This document shows, piece by piece, positions 56,941 through 59,904 of a stretch of 64,000 bases of DNA. The DNA is taken from assembly GCA_022511225.1 (NCBI GenBank), contig JAFLRZ010000011.1, forward strand, positions 1 to 64,000, read 5' to 3'. The notes beneath the pieces were generated by a model. That model was given only the letters and a program-made list of their open reading frames with translations, did not search any database and had not been told where the DNA came from. Position 1 is the first letter of the stretch. The number at the start of each line of letters is the position of its first letter. The stretch comes from Eubacterium sp. Its GTDB lineage: Bacteria > Bacillota > Clostridia > Oscillospirales > Acutalibacteraceae. The translations under genes were made by a program, and so were the position numbers.

Positions 56941-57136
56941 GTACAGGCAAATATTTAAACATTTTATTTTGTGTTTTTTAGTATCACAGGTCAAAAAAAG
57001 TACAATACTTTGTGGTTTGTAAAAATTTTCCATAATAAGAAAAATATTATTTTAAAAAAACTCTTTACTTTATCAATACTCAGTGATATAATTTAGCTAT
57101 ATGATTATGTAAATTTATTGATAGAGGTGTTTATCT

Positions 57137-57694
57137 ATGAAAAAACTTATCGTAATGGTTCTTTCTCTTGTTATGGTATTAACTACTATGGCTGTATACA
57201 CTGTTCCTGCGATGGCAAAGGATGCTGTTATCAGCCCTACCGCTACTACTGCAACCGAAAAGAAAAAGCCTTCTCTTCACGTTAACGGCTCAAACGCAGA
57301 TGGAGATATCACTTTCACTGAAGATCCTAACAACCCCAACAGAGTAACATTTGAGTATACCGGTGACGGTACTGTTAAAGATTGGGAAGACAACCTTGCT
57401 GACGAGCTTGGATTCATTGAGGGTACTGACTATACAGCAGTTATTAATGACGATATGACATATACAATCACCTTTATTTCCGAAGATGCTATTGCTGCTT
57501 GGAATAACGGTCTTGTATGGGTTAATGCTATCGTTGAGTATGACGATGATACAACTTCAACAACCGGCAAGAAGGATCATTCAAACAAGTCACCAAGCAC
57601 TGGTGCACCAACATCAGCAATCGCTGCTACTGTAGCTGTAGCAGGTGCAGGCTTCGCAGTTCTTGCTGCTACAAAGAAGAGAGACGCTGAGTAA
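57137..57694 (+). CDS. Small secreted protein with SPSTG sorting-signal-like C-terminus; candidate sortase substrate
   Basis: Signal peptide MKKLIVMVLSLVMVLTTMAVYTVPAMAKDA; C-term SPSTGAPTSAIAATVAVAGAGFAVLAATKKRDAE (motif, hydrophobic stretch, basic tail). Confidence 0.75.
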   Translation: MKKLIVMVLSLVMVLTTMAVYTVPAMAKDAVISPTATTATEKKKPSLHVNGSNADGDITFTEDPNNPNRVTFEYTGDGTVKDWEDNLADELGFIEGTDYTAVINDDMTYTITFISEDAIAAWNNGLVWVNAIVEYDDDTTSTTGKKDHSNKSPSTGAPTSAIAATVAVAGAGFAVLAATKKRDAE

Positions 57695-57709
57695 TTATAA
57701 AATAAGATT

Positions 57710-57753
57710 AAGCCTGTTTACTGCTTATTTTTAGTTAGTAAACAGGCTTTTTT
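57710..57753 (+). terminator. Hairpin between candidate substrate and sortase
   Basis: AAGCCTGTTTACT gcttatttttagt TAGTAAACAGGCTTTTTT. Confidence 0.8.
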
Positions 57754-57779
57754 AATTGGATAGCACAGAGGTGATAACG

Positions 57780-58589
57780 TTGAACGAAAATGATAATGAG
57801 CTTCAGCAGAATAATGCTGAAAATAAAGATAACAAAAAAAAGCTAAAGCTGATTCTTTTATTTATAATAGTATTTGTTGTCGTTTTCTGCGGTGTATATT
57901 ATGGTATACAGCTCTACTATAATAACAGCAGTAAGCCTGAAATCACTACGACGACTGCTCCGAGTACAACTCAAGGAGCTCAGGAGCTTGCAGAAAATCC
58001 TATCGACTTCAAGTCACTTCAAAAGGAAAATTCCGATATTTACGCATGGATTAAGGTTGACGGCACGAAGATTGACTATCCGATTGTTCAGAGCTTGGAG
58101 GATGACAGCTTTTATCTTAAGCACGATGCTTATACAAAGGAATGGCTCGACAAGGGTGCAGTTTATACCGAAATGATTAATCACAAATCATTTAACGATG
58201 CTATCACCGTGATTTACGGCCATAACGGTTACGGAGATACGATGTTTACAACCCTGCATTATTTTGAAAAAAAGGACTTCTTTGATAAGCATAGTGAATT
58301 CGTTATATATACCAAGGGCAGAAAGCTTACGTATCAGATAATATCCGCCTTCAAATATGATGACAGGCATATTATGAACAGCTTTGATTTTGCAGATATG
58401 TCAGTAGTTGAGGAGTTTCAGTCATTTATTCAGAATCCTGACTCTGCCGTAAAAAACGTAAGAAAGGCTCTTGATACTACTGTTGACAGAAACAGCAATA
58501 TAGTTATACTTTCAACTTGTATAACAAATCAAAAGAGCAACAGATATTTGGTATGTGGAGTATTAGTAAAAGATGAAAAAACCAATTGA
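57780..58589 (+). CDS. Class B-like sortase
   Basis: TTG start with AGAGGTG RBS; N-terminal TM; NPIDFKSLQKENSDIYAWIKVDGTKIDYPIVQ; TVIYGHNGYGDTMFTTLHYF (His); NIVILSTC (Cys); NRYLVCG (Arg). Confidence 0.9.
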   Translation: MNENDNELQQNNAENKDNKKKLKLILLFIIVFVVVFCGVYYGIQLYYNNSSKPEITTTTAPSTTQGAQELAENPIDFKSLQKENSDIYAWIKVDGTKIDYPIVQSLEDDSFYLKHDAYTKEWLDKGAVYTEMINHKSFNDAITVIYGHNGYGDTMFTTLHYFEKKDFFDKHSEFVIYTKGRKLTYQIISAFKYDDRHIMNSFDFADMSVVEEFQSFIQNPDSAVKNVRKALDTTVDRNSNIVILSTCITNQKSNRYLVCGVLVKDEKTN

Positions 58590-59904
58590 TCCAAATCTTA
58601 ATAATTTCGCTGACGGCTTAGAGGATATACTTGATGACGGCAGCTTTAAGTTAAACGATAACGAGAGTGATCAAAGGAAAAGCAACGGAGAGCTTGAAAT
58701 AAAAATCAAGGAAAATCACTATTCAGGTGCTGAGCATCATCACCATTCTTCCCACTCGCACAGTGATCACCACAGTTCACACGAGCACCATTCTTCTCAC
58801 TCACACGGTGAGCATCGCTCCTCGTCACACCATCATTCCTCGCACGAAAGTCACAGTTCGTCATCAAAAAGCAAGAGCAAAAAAGAAAAGAAAAAGCTTC
58901 CTATTGCGGCACGCATTGCAATAGCTATACTTATTATAATATTATTTCTTATTTTTTCGGTCATAGGTTCATTCTTCATTCTCGAGCATATGGGTAAAAG
59001 CGATTTGAAGAACGTCACTACCGAAACAGATTTTAAGGAAACACTTGAATACAACGGCCACACGTATTCATATAACGATGATATGATGGCGGTTGCTTTT
59101 CTCGGTATTGATAAGCGTGATCTTGGAACGGTTGACGGTGCAATCGGTACGGGAGGTCAGTCAGATACAAATATCGTGCTTGCCATTGATTCAAACACAG
59201 GTAAGACGACTGCAATAGCAATCCCCAGAGATACTATTGCCGAGGTTGACCTTTATTCTAACAGCGGATTGTTTTTGCGTTCTGAGGAAATGCAGCTTTG
59301 TCTTAGCTACGCATACGGCGACGGTAAAGCATCCTCTGCGGCTAACACGGTAACTTCTATCAGCCGTGTTCTCGGCAATGTACCTATCAGCAAGTATTTC
59401 TCGCTCGACCTTGACGGTATTGCCGCACTTAATGATGCAATCGGCGGTGTTACGCTTGAGTCACTTTATGATTTCGATAATCTCGGTATTCATAAGGGCG
59501 ACACTATTCACCTTGAGGGTGATATGACGGAAACGTACGTGCGCCAAAGAAGTCTTGATGATATAAATGCTTCTCTTAACAGAACCGAAAGGCAGATTCA
59601 GTATATCAGGGCATTTGCAGGTCAGCTTATTCCGGCAGCGATTGATGATTTCAGCGTTGTGTCAAGACTATATAACACTGCTACTAATTACAGTTCAACC
59701 GACGTTACACTTTCTAACACAACGTACCTTGCTTCTCTCATTCTTTCAAAGAATATCAGAGATTTCGACACTATTACCCTTAAGGGCGAAATGAAGCCGA
59801 GTGACAGAGTTGACGAAAACGGAAACGTCTATGCAGAATTTCATCCTGACAAGGATGCACTTATGGAAACAATTATAAGCGTATTCTATACTCAGGTGGA
59901 TTAA
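58573..59904 (+). CDS. LytR-CpsA-Psr (LCP) family protein with His/Ser-rich N-terminal segment
   Basis: TM LPIAARIAIAILIIILFLIFSVIGSFFIL; LCP core GQSDTNIVLAIDSNTGKTTAIAIPRDT, LEGDMTETYVRQRSLDDINASLNRTERQIQYIRAF; 19 His in residues 55-94. Confidence 0.9.
   Translation: MKKPIDPNLNNFADGLEDILDDGSFKLNDNESDQRKSNGELEIKIKENHYSGAEHHHHSSHSHSDHHSSHEHHSSHSHGEHRSSSHHHSSHESHSSSSKSKSKKEKKKLPIAARIAIAILIIILFLIFSVIGSFFILEHMGKSDLKNVTTETDFKETLEYNGHTYSYNDDMMAVAFLGIDKRDLGTVDGAIGTGGQSDTNIVLAIDSNTGKTTAIAIPRDTIAEVDLYSNSGLFLRSEEMQLCLSYAYGDGKASSAANTVTSISRVLGNVPISKYFSLDLDGIAALNDAIGGVTLESLYDFDNLGIHKGDTIHLEGDMTETYVRQRSLDDINASLNRTERQIQYIRAFAGQLIPAAIDDFSVVSRLYNTATNYSSTDVTLSNTTYLASLILSKNIRDFDTITLKGEMKPSDRVDENGNVYAEFHPDKDALMETIISVFYTQVD

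Follow-up and report, generated by a model that had tools for sequence, protein, structure and literature searches.

A conserved SUB-sortase-LCP gene trio in gut Clostridia as a possible module for attaching glycopolymer to the cell wall

Results

The window analyzed here, a 64,000-nucleotide stretch of a Eubacterium sp. contig, carries three intact open reading frames on the forward strand in the order SUB (a small secreted protein), sortase, and LCP (Table 1). This layout, obtained by ORF calling, agrees in gene content and order with a first-pass annotation made from the letters of the DNA alone, as does the overlap of the last two genes, in which the LCP ATG sits 17 nt within the sortase gene. 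The mechanically called sortase frame begins at 57756. However, the TTG at 57780 is preceded by a good ribosome-binding site (GAGGTGA) and is therefore the likely start, giving a protein of 269 aa.

Table 1. Features of the SUB-sortase-LCP locus in the window
Feature	Position	Strand	Basis
Candidate SUB promoter	57064..57092	+	TTTACT-17-TATAAT with extended -10 TG; consensus scan, 10/12 matches, a consensus match only
SUB gene	57137..57694	+	ORF; 185-aa precursor
Ser33-Pro34 codons, just after the SUB signal peptide	57233..57238	+	SP counts near the cleavage site
SPSTG sorting motif, SUB residues 152-156	57590..57604	+	[SAP]PxT-type motif common to the complete SUBs examined
Intrinsic terminator (hairpin plus T tract) separating SUB and sortase	57710..57755	+	Hairpin z -4.3; 40/45 relatives
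Class B sortase gene	57780..58589	+	TIGR03064, PF04203, invariant residues
LCP gene	58573..59904	+	PF03816 and TIGR00350 over cut-offs

The annotation did not include the terminator that separates SUB from the two enzyme genes. Its hairpin (57710-57749, -21.2 kcal/mol) is strong and has an equivalent 3' of SUB in 40 of the 45 relatives compared, where shuffled sequences would give 0.3. Because this terminator follows SUB and is kept in relatives, SUB is probably transcribed separately, with limited read-through. The terminator together with the promoter-like site upstream of SUB further suggests that SUB is probably produced in excess, and the sortase and LCP protein would be expressed by read-through past the terminator. 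The hairpin sequence itself is recurrent in those 40 relatives (CCTGTTTRCC...GGTAAACAGG), and its arms co-vary in several of them, for example as CCCGTAAC/GTTATGGG.

The SUB precursor consists of a Sec-type signal peptide, an N-terminal ISPTA motif, a beta-rich domain of about 100 aa, the SPSTG motif, a hydrophobic stretch, and a KKRDAE tail, so that the secreted SPSTG protein recognized in the first-pass annotation has all of the parts described there. Both the signal peptide and the tripartite sorting signal that characterize sortase substrates are evident from the sequence and the alignment. An alignment of 40 SUB sequences has invariant S33, W83, P153, T155, and G156, and every complete SUB examined carries a [SAP]PxT-type sorting signal at its C-terminal end. 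The N terminus is also distinctive: of 59 SUBs, 46 have an SP dipeptide no more than 12 residues away from the predicted cleavage site. Among 114 other secreted proteins encoded at these loci, 6 do, and 4 of the 6 are themselves SUB-like. The Ser is retained in most SUBs that lack SP. Scores of SUB against Rumino_NPXTG and the other NCBIfam tail models all fell under cut-off. When a full-length SUB profile was run across the family, the weak matches were mostly to the signal peptide alone and were discarded.

The central domain is predicted with high confidence (pLDDT 93, pTM 0.83), but searches of the PDB by fold, with full-length and domain-only models, returned no match at E <= 0.001, and we therefore claim no function for SUB on the basis of its fold. 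A PDB sequence search with the domain profile likewise gave nothing useful. The first-pass annotation did not recognize the mature domain as a named family. The window protein has no match to the PF18998 HMM (Divergent InlB B-repeat), but trio substrates of more distant relatives do match it. The substrate of the L119 trio scores 27.2 bits against this model as a full protein (cut-off, 23.6), and that of L118 is slightly below the cut-off when scored as a full protein and slightly above it when scored as a domain. Profile comparison ties these distant substrates to the window SUB domain (probability 78%, P 1.9e-5), and they have an F..W core in common with the InlB B-repeat family (PF18998, PF09479). 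Although the window domain falls short by HMM, so that its relation to the family is a profile link at that probability, it is probably an InlB B-repeat-like domain that has diverged.

Among the SUBs of other loci, the central part varies widely while the sorting signal and, usually, the N-terminal SP persist. It is absent from L046 (86 residues) and L052 (82 residues), both of which retain the N-terminal SP and the sorting signal; it is low-complexity sequence in L129 and L133; in L018 (5092-5913) the mature domain is duplicated in tandem; and it is replaced by a different, unrelated domain in the SUB versions of capsule operons. With a dispensable central domain and constant termini, SUB is better suited to be a tether or acceptor than an adhesin, and the loss of the domain in L046 and L052 with both ends kept is what would be expected of the former. 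Three further observations concern SUB-like proteins. The capsule-operon substrates of L163, L168, L172, L173, L190, and L193 appear to have another domain in common, with W(E)VV...SLSPVAVVV as its approximate C-terminal pattern. A SUB paralogue at a separate locus (L111, 5734-6441; G034 contig C47) has the mature domain and a tail without [SA]PxTG. Finally, a SUB-like SPKTG protein with an N-terminal SP (L117, 6491-6985; G092 contig C7) has no sortase or LCP gene within the 13 kb fetched.

Judged by its sequence, the window sortase is a divergent class B enzyme. It matches the class B model TIGR03064 with an E value of 5.5e-45 and 153.5 bits, just short of the cut-off of 153.75, and exceeds the cut-off of the Pfam Sortase model PF04203 (42.7 bits). 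Its nearest solved chains are those of sortase B. The catalytic residues, noted in the first-pass annotation as His/Cys/Arg motifs of a class-B-like enzyme, are His148, Cys247, and Arg255, and they are invariant among 17 relatives.

The LCP protein (443 aa) has a cytoplasmic N terminus rich in His and Ser, as had been noted before, followed by one transmembrane segment and an extracellular LCP domain at about residues 197-351. It scores 69.7 bits against PF03816, above cut-off, and TagU and TagV are related solved structures. Residues D180, D198, R219, R326, R337, and R340 are conserved in 54 of 54 trio LCP proteins. The N-terminal region (58573-58950) has a conserved start, M(K/R)(K/R)PIDPNL, followed in most close relatives by variable His/Ser-rich repeats, which are missing from L064 and L065. 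We considered a metal-handling or catalytic role for the His-rich tract and set it aside, as the tract is predicted to be cytoplasmic and is missing in distant trio LCP proteins.

Scanning named genomes with the sortase yielded 53 relatives, mostly Eubacterium coprostanoligenes-like bacteria and other gut Clostridia, and nearly all have the gene order ABC-ABC-SUB-sortase-LCP-transketolase. E. coprostanoligenes ATCC 51222 has the module at locus L049. Further searches, with SUB across the family and with the sortase across the order and class, found the trio in other genera and families, where the genes that flank it are quite different. We then counted sortase neighbours in 67 loci found by sortase or SUB similarity, each with at least 1.2 kb of flank upstream and 1.3 kb downstream. 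SUB and LCP genes both accompany the sortase in 58 loci, an LCP gene only in 4, SUB only in 0, and neither in 5, where the 67 loci share descent, are partly similarity-selected, and are not independent samples. The SUB-sortase-LCP trio is an evolutionary unit; neighbourhood conservation, which the first-pass annotation had proposed to check, reaches far beyond the genus.

The loci with an LCP gene only are L050, L161, L170, and L173. An SPQTG frame is seen in L173; the other three are LCP-sortase pairs with no visible SUB and count against a model in which SUB and the LCP protein together hold a glycopolymer at the wall, as does L191 at the level of the class, where a sortase and an SPxTG protein occur with no LCP gene in the stretch fetched. 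Neither SUB nor LCP lies beside the sortase in L054, L056, L162, L165, and L174, and in the first two both genes are gone from between the ABC and transketolase genes while the sortase is kept.

These patterns bear on a rival account, in which SUB is a surface protein of the ordinary sortase-anchored kind, either a wall protein or an InlB-repeat-like adhesin, the LCP protein separately attaches a glycopolymer to peptidoglycan, and the genes are linked through envelope co-regulation only. Most SUBs do have a folded domain, duplicated in L018; the terminator stands between SUB and the enzymes; and joining glycopolymer to peptidoglycan is the standard LCP activity (PMC7831098). Yet the linkage persists where the domain is absent, of low complexity, or unrelated, and SUB and LCP have been lost jointly while the sortase stayed. 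We regard this account as a real possibility, though its chances are appreciably below even.

Sortase phylogeny gave further evidence of the association with LCP genes. In a tree of 58 rows, a single clade of 46 rows (support 100/100) takes in every one of the 38 LCP-adjacent sortases, and 0 of 12 rows outside it are LCP-adjacent. This clade splits into a 15-row part with the capsule-operon loci and a 31-row part with the window sortase. Genes of the CpsB, CpsC, or CpsD type lie near sortase and LCP genes in ten loci (L065, L163, L167, L168, L170, L172, L173, L190, L192, and L193), with the order CpsC-sortase-LCP-SUB-CpsB-CpsD in L193. For representatives in L163, L168, L170, and L172, we checked these identities against NCBIfam: the CpsD model TIGR01007 was above cut-off, whereas NF041488 and TIGR01006 gave strong E values at scores well under their curated cut-offs. 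The representatives from L163 also include a sugar transferase by NCBIfam. The link between the LCP protein and a glycopolymer that the first-pass annotation had drawn is strengthened by the placement of these related trios within capsule operons.

The capsule-operon trios belong to families other than that of the window genome, and we found no CpsB/C/D-type genes near the sortases of the 31-row part, which includes the window. Beside the window trio itself there are no polysaccharide genes, but ABC transporter and transketolase genes instead. The genome does contain CpsB/C/D-type genes and a gene for a TagH-like exporter on contig C34, apart from the trio and the LCP genes. The trio could conceivably act in trans on a polymer made by the contig C34 genes.

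The genome encodes four LCP proteins, that of the trio and three others, and seven sortase-like genes in all. One of the latter, on contig C19, encodes another class B sortase, whose score of 207.9 bits is well beyond the family cut-off. Sorting tails of the SPxTG type found in SUB occur three times in the genome: in SUB itself and in two unlinked proteins, one of 387 residues (contig C12) and the other, on C44, read from a frame of 1,724 residues that has SpaA domains. These genes leave the dedicated one-substrate unit that the first-pass annotation had proposed without support. The opposite arrangement it had named as a refuting case, many unlinked SPSTG proteins sharing one housekeeping sortase, is partly matched. 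Contig C12 (L103, C12:1-20000) also has a pilus-like locus, where three sortase genes lie in a stretch of less than 8 kb together with genes for large proteins of the LPxTG type and for an EPHTG protein.

The window sortase could instead be the general SPxTG sortase of the cell, with SUB and the two unlinked proteins as its clients. That the genome has exactly two further tails of the same type fits this role, and for SrtB of Clostridioides difficile several (S/P)PxTG proteins are predicted as substrates (PMC4371152). On the other hand, the contig C19 sortase could serve the two unlinked proteins, and Mediterraneibacter gnavus, as described in a 2026 study, divides such roles between SrtB3 and SrtB4 (PMC13121745). 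A general role, which we put at a little short of an even chance, would be compatible with a function of the trio in wall attachment.

Discussion

The results above led us to consider how the three proteins might work together. SUB would leave the cell through the Sec pathway. The class B sortase would then cut SPST|G and join the Thr to peptidoglycan; its target there is probably the mDAP side chain, the one used by C. difficile SrtB. A polyprenyl-linked glycopolymer would be the substrate of the LCP protein, which would work with SUB so that the polymer would be held at the wall; SUB itself would most likely serve as acceptor or tether, the part played by GspA in relation to LcpA of Actinomyces oris. 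Knowledge of the protein families makes it quite probable that SUB is sorted by the window sortase, and the same knowledge suggests phosphotransfer as the activity of the LCP protein. We infer that the glycopolymer may be joined to, or held by, SUB. Taken as a whole, a wall-attachment module in which the sortase anchors SUB, and SUB and the LCP protein hold a glycopolymer at the wall, is in our estimate about evenly balanced between right and wrong. That the LCP protein directly glycosylates SUB is possible but somewhat doubtful. More tentative still, and on balance unlikely, is the specific version in which SUB is a dedicated polysaccharide carrier, with the LCP protein ligating the polymer, the N-terminal Ser-Pro as candidate acceptor, and the sortase fixing the resulting glycoprotein to peptidoglycan. 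The LCP protein could also link the polymer straight to peptidoglycan, independently of SUB.

One experimental precedent is the GspA-LcpA-SrtA system of A. oris, in which LcpA glycosylates the sortase substrate GspA, encoded adjacent to it, before anchoring (PMC6381275). In both systems the LCP gene is near that of the sorted protein, one gene (the sortase) apart in the window, and in both genomes there are three other LCP proteins. They differ in that A. oris uses the housekeeping SrtA and the glycosylation of GspA is shown by experiment, whereas in the window a class B sortase gene overlaps the LCP gene and glycosylation of SUB is hypothetical. For the pairing of a class B sortase with an SPxTG-type motif, the parallel is C. 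difficile SrtB, whose substrates have (S/P)PxTG motifs (PMC4371152, PMC4591827). In contrast to the trio enzyme, however, SrtB is the sole intact sortase of its cell and serves putative adhesins, and the available sections of these reports describe no LCP partnership.

Class B sortases take part in pilus assembly in some streptococci, and we therefore considered whether the module builds a SUB homopolymer with the sortase as polymerase. SUB is small, however, and sometimes lacks any domain; the mature part of its alignment has no invariant Lys; and the locus has neither a second pilin nor a second sortase. Having found no pilin motif and no second pilin, we rejected the pilus hypothesis, which appears highly improbable.

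A further experimental precedent comes from M. gnavus. There, capsule display depends on srtB4 as well as on an LCP gene that shares its CPS cluster, and the text of the 2026 study consulted here does not name the protein whose sorting underlies the effect of SrtB4 (PMC13121745). The cluster described there combines a SrtB-type sortase and an LCP gene, as in the trio, with a phosphatase/kinase pair, and candidate sorted proteins are reported near the sortases. The srtB4 gene lies within a capsule locus, unlike the window trio. The order of genes in L193 fits the partial M. gnavus gene order, a comparison of gene order and not of sequence (PMC13121745).

If the wall-attachment module proposed here is correct, capsules of gut Clostridia could be anchored via a protein bridge, beyond direct transfer to peptidoglycan by LCP proteins. 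The conserved trio supplies a candidate for the sorted protein of M. gnavus, namely a small SPxTG protein encoded next to the sortase and the LCP protein, and SUB as a carrier, if true, would explain why capsule display in that organism needs a sortase. The minimal SUBs of 82 to 86 residues make the question of the acceptor testable on a very short protein.
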